DNA of 55,519 nucleotides, taken from the NCBI RefSeq assembly GCF_011839805.1, contig NZ_VWPY01000031.1, positions 1-55,519 on the forward strand, read 5' to 3'. The notes beneath the pieces are model-generated. The model saw nothing but the letters and a program-made list of their open reading frames with translations, searched no databases and was not told the DNA's origin. Position 1 is the first letter of the stretch, and the number at the start of each line of letters is the position of its first letter. Made by a program: the position numbers and the translations under genes. This DNA comes from Kineococcus rubinsiae. GTDB taxonomy: Bacteria > Actinomycetota > Actinomycetes > Actinomycetales > Kineococcaceae. Below, piece by piece: positions 45,725 to 51,381 of the stretch.

Positions 45725-45737
45725 GGCCCGCCGGGCC
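45725..45737. terminator. Small hairpin between convergent genes
   Basis: GGCCC-GCC-GGGCC, 5 bp, between the ACP and the GGDEF-EAL stop codons. Weak. Confidence 0.3.
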
Positions 45738-47572
45738 TAGGCGGCGCCGCCGGCGACCAGCGGGCGGCGCTCGTGCACCGGCGCGCGCGCCGCCAGCCAC
45801 GCGTCGAGCTGCGCCGCGGGCATGGGCCGGGCCACGTGGTAGCCCTGCGCCGTCGTGCAGCCGAGGTCGGCGAGCGCCGCGAGCGTGGCGGCGTCCTCGA
45901 TGCCCTCGGCGACGGAGGCCATGCCCAGCCGCGTCGCGAGCTCGATGCCGGTGCGCACGATCGCCGCGCCGCGCGGCTCGTCGAGCATGGCCGTGACGAA
46001 GGACCGGTCGATCTTCAGCTCGCCGACGGGCAGGTCGCGCAGCGAGGCCAGCGAGGTGTAGCCCGTGCCGAAGTCGTCGATCGACAGCGTCGTGCCCAGG
46101 GCCCGCAGCCGCTCCAGCACCGCCTGGGCGCGGCGCGGGTCGGCGATGATCGCGCTCTCGGTGACCTCGAGCTTCAGCAGCCGCGCCGGCAGGCCCGTGC
46201 GGGCCAGCTCGCGGGCCACGCGGTCGGGCAGCGTCTCGTCCAGCAGGCAGCGGGCGGAGACGTTGACGGAGACGACCAGCGGGCGGCCCGCGAGCTCCCA
46301 GCGGCGCGCCTGCTCGCAGGCCTGGGCGAGCACCTCGTGCGTCAGGGGGTGCACGAGGCCGCTGCTCTCGGCGAGCGGCACGAACTCCGACGGGGGCAGC
46401 CGGCCCTCCTGCGGGTGCTCCCAGCGCACGAGCGCCTCGACGCCACGCACGCGGCCGCTGCCCAGGTCGAGCAGCGGCTGGTAGTCCAGCACCAGCTCCC
46501 CCGCGTCGATGCCCGCGCGCAGCTGGGCGAGCAGCCGCAGCTTGCGCGGGTCGTGGTCGTCCAGGGACGAGCGGTAGACGGCCACCGCCTCGTGGGCGGC
46601 CTTGGCGACGTACATCGCGACGTCGGCGTGCTGCAGGAGCGCGGCCTGCGTGTCGCCGTGCTCGGGCGCCACGGCGACGCCCGCGGTCGCGGCGAGCGTG
46701 AGCGTGACGCCGTCGACGAGGAAGGGCTCGTCGAAGGCGTGCAGGACGCGGCGCACGACCCGCAGGACGTCCGCGGTGGCGGCCTCGCCCTCCTCGGGCG
46801 TGGCCAGGACGAGGCCGAACTCGTCGCCGCCCAGGCGCGCCACCAGCTCGCCCTCGCGCAGCGTCTCGCGGATGCGGGGGCCGACCTGGGTGAGCAGCTG
46901 GTCGCCGCAGTGGTGGCCGAGGGTGTCGTTGACCTCCTTGAAGCGGTCGAGGTCGAGCAGCACCACGGCGACGCTGCCGCCCGCGCGGGTCTCCTGCAGC
47001 GCCGCCGCGAGCCGGGTCGTGAAGTGCGCGCGGTTCGGCAGCCCCGTCAGGGCGTCGTGGGCGGCCTGGTGCGCCTGCTCCGCGGCGCGCGCCTCGAGCT
47101 CGCGGGCGAGGTGGCGGGCGTCGGCGAGGGCGCTGGCCTGCGCGCTCAGCATCATCACGAAGTCCGTCACCGGGTCGGCCGCCGCGAAGTGGTCCAGGCG
47201 CAGGCCGAGGCGGTCTAGGTCGGACAGCGTCGTCACCCACGGCGAGCCCAGCAGCAGGACGCCGGCGGGCAGGGTCAGCAGCTGACCGCGCAGCACGAGC
47301 GGGCCGCTCGCGGCGGCGACGAGGACGAGCCCGGTGGGGGCCGGCGCCCCGCGGCCGAAGGACCAGCCGGTGCCCCGCGGGCTGCGGACCACGAGGTGGT
47401 CGGCCACCGCGACCCCCGGCACGAGGCCGGGGCAGGCGGTGCGCAGCGACGGCCCCACGCGGACGGCCGTGCCGGCGCCGTCGAGCACGAGGTGGAAGGG
47501 GAACGCCTCCGCGAGGACCTGCTCGAGCAGGTCGCCGGGGAGGTGGCCAGGGAGGTCGCCCGGACGCGTCAC
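45737..47572 (-). CDS. HNOBA-GGDEF-EAL cyclic di-GMP enzyme, H-NOX partner
   Basis: 611 residues, no membrane helix. N-terminal ~25-155 resembles the HNOBA (H-NOX associated, PAS-like) domain (FPFHLVLDGAG, GSPWVTTLSDLDRLGLRL). A coiled-coil-like helix (SAQASALADARHLARELEARA) leads to GGDEF (canonical at 248-252, RLGGDEFGL) and EAL (EAL at 379-381, with TESAII and DDFGTGYTS). Both catalytic sites look intact, so synthesis and breakdown of c-di-GMP are possible. GTG 47572 overlaps the H-NOX stop. Confidence 0.94.
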   Translation of the reverse strand: MTRPGDLPGHLPGDLLEQVLAEAFPFHLVLDGAGTAVRVGPSLRTACPGLVPGVAVADHLVVRSPRGTGWSFGRGAPAPTGLVLVAAASGPLVLRGQLLTLPAGVLLLGSPWVTTLSDLDRLGLRLDHFAAADPVTDFVMMLSAQASALADARHLARELEARAAEQAHQAAHDALTGLPNRAHFTTRLAAALQETRAGGSVAVVLLDLDRFKEVNDTLGHHCGDQLLTQVGPRIRETLREGELVARLGGDEFGLVLATPEEGEAATADVLRVVRRVLHAFDEPFLVDGVTLTLAATAGVAVAPEHGDTQAALLQHADVAMYVAKAAHEAVAVYRSSLDDHDPRKLRLLAQLRAGIDAGELVLDYQPLLDLGSGRVRGVEALVRWEHPQEGRLPPSEFVPLAESSGLVHPLTHEVLAQACEQARRWELAGRPLVVSVNVSARCLLDETLPDRVARELARTGLPARLLKLEVTESAIIADPRRAQAVLERLRALGTTLSIDDFGTGYTSLASLRDLPVGELKIDRSFVTAMLDEPRGAAIVRTGIELATRLGMASVAEGIEDAATLAALADLGCTTAQGYHVARPMPAAQLDAWLAARAPVHERRPLVAGGAA

Positions 47573-48126
47573 GGGAGCCGCGATGCGTGCCGGACGAGGA
47601 ACTCGTCGTGGTCGGCGCCGTCCGCGGTCGAGCGGGTCCGGGTCGCCGTGGCCACCTGGCCCAGCAGCTCGCCGAGCCCCTCGACGAGGCCGACGACCAT
47701 CGAGGACAGACCGGGCCGGTCGGAGTAGTAGTGCAGCGTGAGGGAGGAGGCGTCGAGCTCGTCGCAGCGGAACGACGGCGGGCGCAGCTCCGGCATCGTC
47801 AGGCTGACCCGGGCGTGCAGGGCGTCCAGCCCGCGCAGGACCTCGGCGACGGAGCCGCCCGCGGCCTGCAGCAGCGGCCCCCAGCCCTGCGCGGCGGTGA
47901 AGGTCACCCAGTGCCGGCCGAAGGCGACGAGGACGTCGTCGACGCTGAGCTGGAGCTCCTCGCTCGCGGCCTGCACGAGCCGGTAGGTGATCTCGTCGGG
48001 GTAGCCGGTCATCCCGACGAAGGAGGACTCGCTCACCTGCGCGCGGGTGCGGATCGCCTCCCACGTGGCGTCGCCCCCCACGGCGCGCGCCAGGTCGGCG
48101 ACGGCGGTGTTGACGAGTCCGTACAC
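47569..48126 (-). CDS. H-NOX heme nitric oxide sensor
   Basis: 185 residues from GTG 48126, with GAGGAGG upstream. Starts MYGLVN like other H-NOX proteins. Proximal heme His104 (LDALHARV), Pro117, and the heme propionate motif YxSxR as Tyr133-Ser135-Arg137. Residues that hold O2 in O2-binding members (distal Tyr, Asn, Trp) are not seen (PGLSSMVVG follows YxSxR), so NO sensing is more likely. Coupled to the GGDEF-EAL gene. Confidence 0.94.
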   Translation of the reverse strand: MYGLVNTAVADLARAVGGDATWEAIRTRAQVSESSFVGMTGYPDEITYRLVQAASEELQLSVDDVLVAFGRHWVTFTAAQGWGPLLQAAGGSVAEVLRGLDALHARVSLTMPELRPPSFRCDELDASSLTLHYYSDRPGLSSMVVGLVEGLGELLGQVATATRTRSTADGADHDEFLVRHASRLP

Positions 48127-48226: not shown

Positions 48227-49417
48227 TCAGCCCCGCGGCGGCACCGGCCGGGGCGGCGGGCCCGCGTAGCGCGCGGCGGGGCGCACGACCCGGCCCTCGC
48301 CGGCCTGCTCGAGGACGTTGGCGCACCACCCGACGACCCGGCTGACGGCGAAGGTGGGCGTGAACAGGACCCGCTCGAGCCCGCAGAGCTCCATCACGAC
48401 GCCCGCGTAGAACTCGACGTTGGCGTGCAGCTCGCGGCCGGGCTTGAGCTCGGCCAGCACCTCCACGACGCGCCGCTCGACGGCCGTCGCGAAGTCCACG
48501 AGGTCGCCGCCGAGCTCCTGCGCCGTCTCCCGCAGCAGGACCGCGCGCGGGTCCGCCGTCCGGTAGACCGCGTGGCCGAAGCCCATGATCCGCTCCCCCG
48601 CCGCGACGCGGGCGCGGACCCAGGCGTCCAGGCGGTCCGGGGAGCCGATGTCGTCGAGGGCCGCGAGGGCCCGGTCCGGTGCGCCGCCGTGCAGCGGTCC
48701 CGAGAAGGCGCCCAGGGCGGCCACGACGGCGGCCGCGACGTCGGCGCCCGTGGAGGCCACGACGCGGGCCGTGAACGTCGAGGCGTTGAAGCCGTGGTCG
48801 AGCGTGGCGACGAGGTAGCGCTCGACGGCGCGCACGTGGCGCGCGTCCGCCTCGCGGCCCGCGAGCATCCACAGCCAGTTCGCGGCGGTGCCGAGGTCGG
48901 CGCGCGGCGCGACGGGGGCGAGACCGGCCCGCAGGCGGTGCAGGGCGGCCAGGACGGTCGGGGTGGCGGCGCACAGCCGCAGCGCGTCGCGGGCCCGCTG
49001 CTCCGGTCCGAGGTCGAGGACGGGCCGCATCCCCTCCTCGGCGGCGAGCAGGGACAGCGCCGTGCGCAGGCCGGTCAGGGGCGCGGCCGCCGCACCGGCC
49101 GCGGCGATCCCGGGCAGGGCGGCCAGCACGGCCGGGCCGAGGGCGCGGGCCCCGCGCACCTCGGCCGCGAAGCCGGCGTGCTCGTCCGCCGAGGGCAGGT
49201 GCCCCCGGTGCAGGAGGAACCAGCCGTCCTCGACGTCGCGGGTGCGGGCCAGCTCCACGCCGGAGTACCCGCGGTAGTGGTAGCTGCCCTCCTGGCCGAG
49301 GACGTCGCCCAGCCGGGTCTCGGTGACCACCACGCCGCGGAGCCCGGCGGGGGCGAGGGGCGGCGCGGGGCGCGCTCCCGAGGTCGTCGTGGTGGTCGTC
49401 GCCGCAGTCGTCGTCAT
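48227..49417 (-). CDS. Citrate synthase family protein
   Basis: 396 residues. His residues in LDHGFNAS, GPLHGGAPD and GFGHAVYRTADPR match the three active-site regions. At the catalytic Asp position the sequence reads NVEFYAG, i.e. Glu instead of the usual Asp, worth noting. ATG 49417 sits six bases from a GACAGT -10, so probably leaderless. A Thr-rich N-terminal stretch (residues 2-10) precedes the fold. Could be citrate or 2-methylcitrate synthase. Divergent from an HTH-fused paralogue. Confidence 0.9.
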   Translation of the reverse strand: MTTTAATTTTTTSGARPAPPLAPAGLRGVVVTETRLGDVLGQEGSYHYRGYSGVELARTRDVEDGWFLLHRGHLPSADEHAGFAAEVRGARALGPAVLAALPGIAAAGAAAAPLTGLRTALSLLAAEEGMRPVLDLGPEQRARDALRLCAATPTVLAALHRLRAGLAPVAPRADLGTAANWLWMLAGREADARHVRAVERYLVATLDHGFNASTFTARVVASTGADVAAAVVAALGAFSGPLHGGAPDRALAALDDIGSPDRLDAWVRARVAAGERIMGFGHAVYRTADPRAVLLRETAQELGGDLVDFATAVERRVVEVLAELKPGRELHANVEFYAGVVMELCGLERVLFTPTFAVSRVVGWCANVLEQAGEGRVVRPAARYAGPPPRPVPPRG

Positions 49418-49469
49418 GCCGGGACTGTCCGGTACTTGACGCGAGTCGTCAACGTTGATCGGATCAACC
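49418..49469. promoter_or_regulatory. Palindromic divergent promoter of the two citrate synthase genes
   Basis: TTGACG-CGAGT-CGTCAA (49436-49452) provides a TTGACG -35 in each direction. Leftward: TTGACG (49452-49447), 17 bp, GACAGT (49429-49424), 6 nt, ATG. Rightward: TTGACG (49436-49441), 17 bp, TCGGAT (49459-49464), 5 nt, GTG. A second dyad GTTGATCGGATCAAC (49454-49468), perfect 7-1-7, covers the rightward -10 and start, as an operator would. Confidence 0.65.
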
Positions 49470-50615
49470 GTGACCACCGTCCTGACCACCGCCGAGGCCG
49501 CGCACCGCCTCGGGGTGAAGCCCCAGACGCTGTACGCCTACGTCAGCCGCGGGCTGCTCACGAGCCGGCGCCGGCCCGGGACCCGCGGCAGCGTCTTCGA
49601 CGCCGACGAGGTCGACCGCCTCGCGGGCCGCGGCCGCGCCGACCGGGTGCCCACGGGCGTGGTCGAGACCGTGCGCACGGCGATCACCTCCCTCGACGGC
49701 GACGACCTGCACTACCGCGGGCACCGCGCGGTCGACCTGGCCCGCACGGCCTCCTTCGAGGCCGTGGCCCGGCTGCTCTGGACGGGCGAGCTCACCGACG
49801 GCCCGTTCGAGGCGCCCGCCGACCTCGTCGCGCTCGTGCGCCGGGCCGTCGCCGTCCTGCCGCCCACGGCCCGCCGCAGCGACCACCTGCGGGTCGGGGT
49901 CGCCGTGCTCGGGGCCGCGGACCCGCTGCGCGCGGACCCCTCGCCCGCCGCCTTCGCCCGCACCGGCGCCCGGGTCATCGCCGTGCTGACGGCCGCCCTG
50001 GCGGCGCGCGAGCACCCGACGGTGGCCGGGCGGCTGTCGTCGGCCCTGCCCGGCGCCCCGGCCCCCGAGCTCCTCGACCCCGTCCTCGTGCTGCTCGCCG
50101 ACCACGGCCTGGCCGTGTCCACCCTCGCGGCCCGGGTCGCCGCGAGCGCCCGCGCGACGCCCTACTCCGTGCTCGCGGCGGGCCTGGCCGCGGCGGACGG
50201 CGACGCGCACGGGTCCGCCAGCACCGTCGCGCACCGCTTCCTCGCCGAGGCGCTCGCGGACCCCCTGGCCGCGCTGGCGGAGCGCTGGCGCGCGGGCGTC
50301 GCGGTCCCCGGCTTCGGGCACGTCCTCTACGCGACCCGCGACCCGCGCGCCGAGGCGCTGCTCGAGACCCTGCCCGACGGCGCGGTGCGCGAGGCCGTGG
50401 AGGTGCTGCGCGACGCCGTGGACGACCTCCCCAACGTGGACCTGGCCCTGGCGGCCTTCCAGCACGCCCACGGCCTGCCCGGCGACGCGGGCGAGCTGCT
50501 CTTCGAGGTGGCCCGTCTGGCCGGCTGGGTCGCCCACGGCCTCGAGGAGCTCGCCGAGCCCAGCGTCCGGTTCCGCGCCGCGGGCCTCTACACGGGTGAG
50601 CCGCCCCGCCGCTGA
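49470..50615 (+). CDS. HTH-fused citrate synthase-like protein (possible regulator)
   Basis: 381 residues. Residues 1-60 form a MerR/excisionase-like HTH (LTTAEAAHRLGVKPQTLYAYV, then RGSVFDADEVDRLAG). The rest is a citrate synthase fold: LADHGLAVS, GDAHGSAS, GFGHVLYATRDPRA and NVDLALAAF keep His, His, His/Arg and Asp at the catalytic positions. The large domain is shorter than in normal enzymes. Could be an enzyme that binds DNA, or a citrate/acyl-CoA-sensing repressor of the divergent gene. GTG 49470 chosen from the promoter; the upstream ATC/ATT start is not used. Confidence 0.85.
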   Translation: MTTVLTTAEAAHRLGVKPQTLYAYVSRGLLTSRRRPGTRGSVFDADEVDRLAGRGRADRVPTGVVETVRTAITSLDGDDLHYRGHRAVDLARTASFEAVARLLWTGELTDGPFEAPADLVALVRRAVAVLPPTARRSDHLRVGVAVLGAADPLRADPSPAAFARTGARVIAVLTAALAAREHPTVAGRLSSALPGAPAPELLDPVLVLLADHGLAVSTLAARVAASARATPYSVLAAGLAAADGDAHGSASTVAHRFLAEALADPLAALAERWRAGVAVPGFGHVLYATRDPRAEALLETLPDGAVREAVEVLRDAVDDLPNVDLALAAFQHAHGLPGDAGELLFEVARLAGWVAHGLEELAEPSVRFRAAGLYTGEPPRR

Positions 50616-50742: not shown

Positions 50743-51381
50743 GTGAGGAAGAAGATCGCGACAGCACTGGCCATCGGCGCCATCGGCATCGGGGGGCTGG
50801 CCGTGTCGGGGTCGGCGTCCGCCGCCGACGACGCCACCAGCGGGGCGCCGACGTCCCGCATCGAGGCCATCAAGGACGCGCTCGCGGGTCTCGTGGGCGA
50901 CGGGTCGATCTCACAGGACCAGGCGGACGAGGTCGCCACCACGCTGGGGTCCGCGGACCTCGGCCCGGGCGGCGGGCACGGTCCCCACGGCCGCGCCGGC
51001 GGGCCCGACCTGGCCACCGCCGCCACCACGCTGAAGCTCAGCGAGGACGACCTGCGCACCGCGCTGCAGGGCGGGAAGACGCTCGCCCAGGTGGCGGCCG
51101 ACCAGGACGTCGCGGTCGACGACCTCGTCGCGGCGCTGGTGGACGCGGAGAAGGCGCGCATCGCCACGCAGGTGAGCGACGGCGACCTGACCCAGGCGCA
51201 GGCCGACGAGCGGCTGGCGGACCTGACGCAGCGGGTCACCGATCGGGTCAACAGCGCCGGCCGGCCCGGTGGCCGCGGTCCGGCCGGGGACGCCCCGGCG
51301 GCCCCGGCGGCCCCGGACGCCCCGGCGGCTCCCACGGCCCCCAGCGCCTCCCCCAGCGCGACGGCTACGTCGGGGACGTGA
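50743..51381 (+). CDS. Secreted protein of unknown function
   Basis: 212 residues. GTG 50743 with GGGGAG upstream. Signal peptide (KKIATALAIGAIGIGGLAVSG, cleavage after SASA ~27). Mature part is helical (RIEAIKDALAGLVGDGSISQDQ, LKLSEDDLRTALQGGKTLAQVA) and ends in a Pro/Ala-rich tail. Repeated 'short helix with G-S/D-L-T/S-Q-D/A-Q-A-D-E' patterns (GSISQDQADE, GDLTQAQADE) suggest a duplicated unit. No known catalytic motif. The end overlaps the convergent FUSC gene by 17 nt. Confidence 0.78.
   Translation: MRKKIATALAIGAIGIGGLAVSGSASAADDATSGAPTSRIEAIKDALAGLVGDGSISQDQADEVATTLGSADLGPGGGHGPHGRAGGPDLATAATTLKLSEDDLRTALQGGKTLAQVAADQDVAVDDLVAALVDAEKARIATQVSDGDLTQAQADERLADLTQRVTDRVNSAGRPGGRGPAGDAPAAPAAPDAPAAPTAPSASPSATATSGT

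Follow-up and report, generated by a model that had tools for sequence, protein, structure and literature searches.

A citrate synthase-fold protein with a winged helix-turn-helix domain and a conserved adjacent operator suggests an enzyme converted to a gene switch in actinobacteria

A 55,519-nucleotide stretch of Kineococcus rubinsiae DNA (contig NZ_VWPY01000031.1, hereafter referred to as the window) carries two divergently oriented genes for proteins with a citrate synthase (CS) domain. The plus-strand product is a fusion of an N-terminal helix-turn-helix (HTH) domain with the CS domain. The minus-strand product is a CS of the CitA type, hereafter referred to as the partner. The partner ATG at 49417 and the fusion GTG at 49470 are separated by 52 bp. 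In the Pfam analysis the single fusion open reading frame scored 31 bits with MerR (PF00376, cut-off 28.2) and was also over the cut-off for HTH_17 (30 against 27) and MerR_1 (PF13411, 26 against 21.6), while its CS domain reached 168 bits with Citrate_synt (PF00285, cut-off 27). With the NCBIfam citrate synthase models the fusion stayed under cut-off (best 111.6 bits against 421), and it is a predicted CS-fold protein outside the named CS families. The fusion and the partner are 31% identical across the aligned part, and the host genome has four PF00285 genes. A first-pass annotation of this DNA had proposed an HTH-CS fusion with the catalytic His/Asp set retained; the Pfam matches and the catalytic-type residues H247, H284 and D324 of the fusion bear this out.

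The HTH domain was analyzed further. In a PDB profile search its best matches were the BldC structures 6amk and 6ama (E 0.004–0.006). Modelled alone with AlphaFold2, the domain gave a pLDDT of 87.6, and the top Foldseek match of the model was a BldC-DNA complex (TM 0.74–0.78, E 0.002). BldC, SoxR and HiNmlR matched at E 0.002–0.01 and no fold matched at E 0.001 or better; such modest values are as expected for 59 residues. By Pfam and by fold the domain is a winged HTH of the BldC/MerR type. A model of the whole fusion, built on 34 aligned fusions, had a mean pLDDT of 92.5, with helix-helix-wing-helix at residues 4–58, a poorly defined linker at 58–64 and the CS fold from about residue 72. The folds closest to the whole model are citrate and 2-methylcitrate synthases. 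MerR regulators have a C-terminal coiled-coil dimerisation helix. No such helix was seen in the AlphaFold2 model, where the HTH leads through the low-confidence linker into the CS fold. The fusion has an HTH and an enzyme fold on one chain next to a candidate operator, as befits a one-component regulator with an enzyme-derived sensor. In a tree of 50 CS domains, 28 fusions fell on one side of a branch with SH-aLRT support of 100. In one locus of the same genus (L118, upstream of 1501) a 15-bp tandem repeat (five residues, AREIG) extends the N-terminus of the fusion between the start codon and the HTH.

The intergenic region contains a perfect 7-1-7 dyad, surrounded by a longer imperfect repeat, and a second dyad, TTGACG/CGTCAA, at 49436–49441 and 49447–49452. 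The second dyad provides the putative −35 elements of both genes, as the first-pass annotation had stated for the 52-bp divergent promoter. The perfect dyad had been placed over the start of the fusion gene; the dyad is there, slightly shifted, ending one base before GTG 49470. A TTG at 49455 would fall inside the core dyad. Since GTG or ATG directly follows the dyad in six relatives of the same genus, GTG 49470 is the likely start.

A simple sigma-70 consensus scan detected no promoter, and promoter boxes were assigned from conservation within the genus. All seven same-genus loci, that of the window among them, share one layout: TTGAC(N)-17/18 bp-TCNNAT-CAACC-GTG/ATG on the plus strand, with TTGAC-17/18 bp-GACNNT-6 or 7 nt-start codon on the minus strand. 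The fusion transcript is likely leaderless, and the two divergent promoters would both be leaderless, overlapping and mutually exclusive in use. The core dyad lies over the presumed −10 element of the fusion and at, or just upstream of, the presumed −35 element of the partner. This is not the arrangement of MerR operators, which are located between −35 and −10 elements with a long 19–20 bp spacer: the putative spacers here are 17–18 bp, and the operator lies on one −10 element and upstream of the other −35 element. Coordinates of the features are collected in Table 1.

Table 1. Features of the divergent locus in the window. Promoter elements are putative assignments.
Feature	Position	Strand	Remarks
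HTH-citrate synthase fusion gene	49470–50615	+	381 aa from GTG 49470; alternative TTG start 49455
Winged HTH domain, BldC/MerR type	49470–49646	+	residues 1–59; Pfam, PDB profile search, AlphaFold2, Foldseek
Citrate synthase (CS) domain	49683–50612	+	residues ~72–381; Pfam and structure model
CitA-type citrate synthase (partner), Glu at catalytic Asp position	48227–49417	−	PF00285 354 bits, full length
Core operator GTTGATCGGATCAAC	49454–49468		perfect 7-1-7 dyad GTTGATC-G-GATCAAC
Extra half-site GTCAA	49448–49452		extended operator 49448–49468; overlaps putative −35 of partner
Putative fusion −35 TTGACG	49436–49441	+	same arrangement in 7/7 same-genus loci, window included
Putative fusion −10 TCGGAT	49459–49464	+	17 bp spacer; 5 nt before GTG
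Putative partner −35 TTGACG	49447–49452	−	assigned from conservation
Putative partner −10 GACAGT	49424–49429	−	17 bp spacer, 6 nt before ATG; GACNNT in 7/7 same-genus loci

Relatives of the fusion were collected from several genome samples. At E 1e-20 a match was obtained in 68 of the 197 genomes of a class sample, and the 36 at E 1e-30 or better were taken as HTH fusions, a few of them (e.g. genomes G038 and G162) with a match that shows the CS part only. Matches were found in 9 of 39 genomes of near relatives (for the window's genus, in 6 of its 10 other genomes) and in 31 of 296 genomes of a phylum sample, two of these matching the CS part only. A scan of named genomes contributed 80 of at least 582 confirmed relatives. 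Upstream regions were compared for 107 loci (L005–L031 and L035–L114, window included; L103 and L104 duplicate L021 and L009). The core dyad has the form RTTGAY-N3-RTCAAY, usually with GTCAA before it. The core dyad was present within 450 bp upstream of the fusion in 100 of the 107 loci. Dinucleotide shuffles of the same upstream regions contained it in 4 of 5,350 cases, and no core was found in 395,483 bases downstream of the same loci. Addition of later loci raised the number of distinct loci to 136, of which 122 had the core upstream of the fusion, with a spacer of 3 in 92 loci, 4 in 9, 5 in 3, 6 in 16 and 7 in 2. Loci with a spacer of 6 or 7 belong mostly (13/18) to phylum-level family f65, and TCAAY precedes the core in 114 of the 122. 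A logo of the 107 loci gave the operator consensus GTCAAYRTTGAT-NNN-RTCAAYR. Core and GTCAA hardly vary among the 92 loci with a spacer of 3, where conservation amounts to 0.40 bits per position on the CS side against 0.12 on the fusion side. In most loci beyond the window's genus the fusion start is farther from the dyad.

A strict form of the site, TCAAYRTTGAYN{3,6}RTCAAY, was then sought across whole genomes of the class sample. It occurred in 29 of the 197, namely in 23 of 36 fusion genomes and 6 of 161 others (Fisher p 1.2e-15). In each of the 23 fusion genomes one copy adjoins the fusion by coordinates, while the stretches around the site in the six genomes without a fusion showed neither a CS nor a fusion. 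Thirteen fusion genomes have no strict site: G018, G112, G116, whose left half-site differs by one letter, and ten members of genus g46. The window's own 4.88-Mb genome contains the strict form once. A looser pattern finds three places there, and the other two are without the extended half-site and have no CS or fusion found beside them. The conserved core and its association with fusion genomes support the proposal of a CS with an HTH and an operator of its own, at a position from which the fusion could control both its own gene and the divergent CS gene.

The partner is below the NCBIfam citrate synthase cut-off (319.9 against 332 bits) and carries the sequence NVEF, i.e. Glu at the position of the catalytic Asp. 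The first-pass annotation had taken this Glu as a hint that enzyme and sensor roles may be swapped between the two proteins. The comparison speaks against it: Glu is present in 101 of 101 partners with a filled column (4 rows are gapped there) and likewise in the solved CitA chains of M. tuberculosis and B. subtilis, and 2c6x, B. subtilis 'citrate synthase 1', is a CS of the Glu type. Judged from these sequences, Glu at the catalytic position is the norm of the CitA type. The partner in an Actinoplanes locus (L041) is of the M. tuberculosis CitA type, with 572 bits to PRK12350 (cut-off 332). A minus-strand CS match was found upstream of the fusion in 98 of the 107 loci, in two of them more than 400 bp away (L055, L077). 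Five loci (L031, L099, L102, L111, L172) have the core with no CS found beside it. In five others (L028, L029, L030, L152, L153) an HMGL-family, homocitrate-synthase-like divergent neighbour, not homologous to CS, takes the place of the CS, and a distant one is present in L173. The core operator is retained in five of these six loci (L028–L030, L153, L173), with only a shorter palindrome in L152. The nearest NCBIfam models of this neighbour are homocitrate/isopropylmalate synthases, below every cut-off. That it might serve as the sole (Re-type) citrate synthase was not supported: in 10 of 10 tested genomes one or more CS genes were present in addition to the fusion. The partner reading frame of a few Streptomyces loci, L009 (duplicate L104), L061 and L077, ends early, with 28 to 310 residues before its first stop; the partner gene may be broken in these loci, where fusion and operator persist, sequencing error being another possibility.

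To compare active sites, 120 fusions were aligned with 107 CS rows (105 divergent partners and 2 own paralogues). Four substrate-binding columns, one His and three Arg, are invariant in 120 of 120 fusions; we take them to be the equivalents, in name and role, of pig H238, R329, R401 and R421. The Asn of HGFNAST, near the catalytic His/His/Asp, is present in 107/107 CS rows. Fusions have Ala at this position in 112 cases, including that of the window, Ser in 4, Pro in 2 and Asn in 2. The Met of MGFGH, also found in 107/107 CS rows, is Pro in 118 fusions. The equivalents of H274, H320 and D375 are kept in 119, 116 and 119 of the 120 fusions, respectively, and the H320 equivalent, the His of GFGH, is A, M, T and T in the four that changed it. 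Since the binding columns are complete, whereas the Asn and Met have changed in nearly all fusions and the GFGH His in four, substrate binding looks more strictly conserved in the fusions than catalysis, a reading qualified by the role of the GFGH His itself in oxaloacetate binding. If either protein of the pair is drifting from catalysis, it would be the fusion, with its Asn turned to Ala in 112/120 and the GFGH His lost in 4/120. Residual catalysis in the fusion is rather unlikely. Two loci of the window's genus (L119, L120) have Thr for the GFGH His and an intact operator, and their fusions are natural candidates for catalytically dead regulators. The GFGH His is presumably the residue addressed in an experiment on Caulobacter CitA. 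There the His matching H306 of E. coli GltA, reported to be critical for oxaloacetate binding, was changed; enzyme function was lost and cell-cycle control persisted (PMC7083601).

Two Streptomyces genomes, G018 and G112, have a fusion without a partner and without an operator beside it, a finding that initially counted against local regulation. With a relaxed scan (3 and 2 places in total in G018 and G112) we then found the exact sequence ATTGATTGAATCAAT before a CoA-transferase III-like gene in both (Pfam for the G018 gene). This CoA-transferase gene was present at E 1e-100 in 41 of 61 Streptomyces genomes, and the best 30 loci of the 41 were examined. The core precedes the gene in 9 of 17 genomes with the fusion and in 0 of 13 without (p 0.003). 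Among the 21 loci without this core, 8 genomes have the fusion and 13 do not; a degenerate core (1 or 2 mismatches) was seen in 4 of the 21, three of them with the fusion. Sixteen of the 17 fusion genomes of this set have the operator at the fusion, the 17th being G018. The CoA-transferase gene is thus a candidate second target in Streptomyces. In some Streptomyces the dyad stands shortly before the CoA-transferase III start (L175:3096-3110, L176:3203-3217, L177–L206), in several followed by a conserved block, ACTGCATAGTGCAGTCATG.

From the architecture, the conserved operator that tracks the fusion, the retained substrate-binding columns and the loss of residues linked to catalysis, we infer that the fusion is a transcription regulator of the one-component kind, with a converted citrate synthase as its sensor (probability about 0.8). 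CS enzymes are homodimers. The dimeric CS domain would hold two BldC/MerR-type winged HTHs on the inverted repeat RTTGAY-N3-RTCAAY. In the window's genus this repeat covers the fusion's own putative −10 element and start, and for this reason the fusion is expected to repress itself; binding to the dyad together with self-repression is probable. Because the GTCAA half-site merges with the −35 element of the overlapping divergent promoter, the secondary CitA-type CS would come under the same control. Oxaloacetate (or citrate), perhaps with an acyl-CoA, would alter the grip on DNA from the retained pocket, so that CS expression would be tied to the substrate or product of the enzyme itself. The chance that the ligand is one of these two compounds, alone or together with an acyl-CoA, is about even.

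In Streptomyces coelicolor the divergent pair SCO5831/SCO5832 (citA3/citA4) was taken as the same system, with the fusion as SCO5831. The sucrase/ferredoxin-like gene SCO5830 and the kinase gene SCO5829 adjoin SCO5831, and by translation sucrase/ferredoxin-like and kinase genes follow the fusion in Streptomyces loci. A study of MtrA places an MtrA site at −92 from SCO5831 and −16 from SCO5832 (PMC12323332), distances that fit this identification. Proteome and transcriptome studies treat SCO5831 as citrate synthase-like or as a citrate synthase, in places a putative one (PMC9739823, PMC8981147, PMC7324645). In the accessible parts of these four accounts no DNA-binding domain, operator or self-regulation is named for SCO5831.

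The sign of control at the partner gene is the point on which a one-component regulator could act in two ways. Repression of both genes had been proposed in the first-pass annotation. For the fusion this agrees with the dyad over its presumed −10 element; for the partner repression is one of two readings, since the dyad lies at or just upstream of the −35 element and activation is also conceivable there. The fusion might repress itself and activate the partner, bound just upstream of the partner −35 element and recruiting RNA polymerase. If the partner mRNA starts at its ATG, the centre of the dyad is at about −44. The position of the dyad fits activation, and so does the greater conservation of the CS side, in register with the dyad, among the 92 loci with a spacer of 3; the GTCAA half-site overlaps the −35 element, which fits occlusion too, and activation of the partner is a possibility that we hold somewhat below evens. 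The fusion could also be a bifunctional trigger enzyme in the manner of PutA, active as a citrate or 2-methylcitrate synthase and at the same time able to bind the promoter of its own gene. The H274, H320 and D375 equivalents in the window and in most fusions, and the closeness of the fold to citrate and 2-methylcitrate synthases, agree with it. The Asn that all CS rows keep is Ala in nearly all fusions, however, and two of the four fusions that lost the GFGH His are from the window's genus, with the operator intact; a working enzyme seems rather unlikely.

It is improbable that the HTH binds no DNA and only aids oligomerisation, with the dyad owned by another regulator such as MtrA or GlnR. 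The MtrA study reports binding between SCO5831 and SCO5832 and higher expression of both genes late in an mtrA mutant (PMC12323332). However, the MtrA site listed there, TTGACTTAACTGTCCA, resembles a conserved block on the putative −10 element of the partner and not the dyad (as compared with the loci of other genomes), and the dyad stays with the fusion beside neighbours of different kinds and seldom occurs in genomes that have no fusion. Less probable still is that the dyad is simply DNA common to overlapping promoters, with two −35 boxes, and is maintained for RNA polymerase. The presumed −35 element of the partner and −10 element of the fusion do overlap the extended operator in the window's genus. 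In the spacer-3 loci, however, core and GTCAA are nearly fixed while the fusion side is little conserved, and the core persists with different neighbours and before the unrelated CoA-transferase gene.

Several observations weigh against a one-component regulator acting through this operator. The exact core is missing in 14 of the 136 loci (L007, L022, L023, L039, L042, L055, L066, L122, L152, L154, L158, L164, L169, L174). By visual inspection eight of these look like near-misses, no core-like sequence is seen in L007, L022, L055 and L158, and in L169 and L174 the match starts inside the protein, so that the upstream region is outside the matched part. The ten g46 fusion genomes fail the strict pattern, and the four of them for which a locus with a core is available (L008, L011, L012, L025) are without the GTCAA half-site. 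In fusion genomes G131 and G162 strict sites occur at 3 further places away from the fusion. The near-complete retention of the catalytic His and Asp equivalents leaves room for catalysis. The GFGH His is presumably the one reported for Caulobacter CitA as important for oxaloacetate binding, so that ligand binding is doubtful in the four fusions that lost it. MtrA binding in the S. coelicolor intergenic region counts on the same side. For the CoA-transferase link there are only 2 phylogenetically independent pairs, and the phylogenetic test lacked power; relaxed cores have a background of 2–6 places per Streptomyces genome, against 0–2 for a reversed-pattern control.

The proposed regulator resembles several known systems in part. 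BldC is the closest solved HTH by sequence and by fold. It is, however, a small stand-alone protein and binds direct repeats, in contrast to the inverted repeat at the fusion. MocR/GabR proteins likewise join an HTH to an enzyme-derived, aminotransferase-like sensor; HTH family, enzyme fold and cofactor are different. B. subtilis CitA presumably diverges from its regulator gene citR. CitR is a LysR protein and not a CS, unlike the fusion. Caulobacter CitA is a CS whose regulatory role is independent of catalysis; in the accessible portions of the report no HTH is mentioned, and the protein acts on CtrA by a route that its authors suspect is indirect (PMC7083601).

Some further observations concern neighbouring genes. 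The gene after the fusion (50743–51381, plus strand) has a signal-peptide-like start by eye and no Pfam or NCBIfam match. At 45737–48126 on the minus strand there are a gene for an H-NOX haem-NO-binding protein (47569–48126), on the same strand as the partner and about 100 bp past its stop, and a gene for a GGDEF/EAL protein with HNOBA similarity; the two are a possible nitric-oxide to c-di-GMP pair. In L122 a divergent fusion paralogue that has lost the catalytic His and Asp (Leu, Tyr) faces a gene for a flavoprotein-like product, and the DNA that separates the two contains a degenerate sequence resembling the operator.

Since Pfam already shows the domain combination, the architecture as such is not new. 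Among the open-access papers listed for HTH-citrate synthase no account of its function was found, and function and operator appear undescribed within what was searched. The locus suggests a metabolic enzyme converted to a gene switch for a neighbouring citrate-making enzyme. With about equal odds for and against, there is an undescribed actinobacterial regulator family in which the CS fold serves as an oxaloacetate/acyl-CoA sensor and governs an adjacent secondary condensing enzyme (a CitA-type CS or an HMGL-family synthase), and in Streptomyces the CoA-transferase gene as well, through the substrates of that enzyme. If this is true, direct transcriptional sensing by a CS-derived domain would be a new sensor class. 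One conserved DNA site is offered for Streptomyces genes that the cited papers treat as further citrate synthases, and at least one S. coelicolor citrate synthase gene may encode a regulator rather than an enzyme. Such a regulator would help to explain why several citrate synthase genes are kept per actinobacterium.

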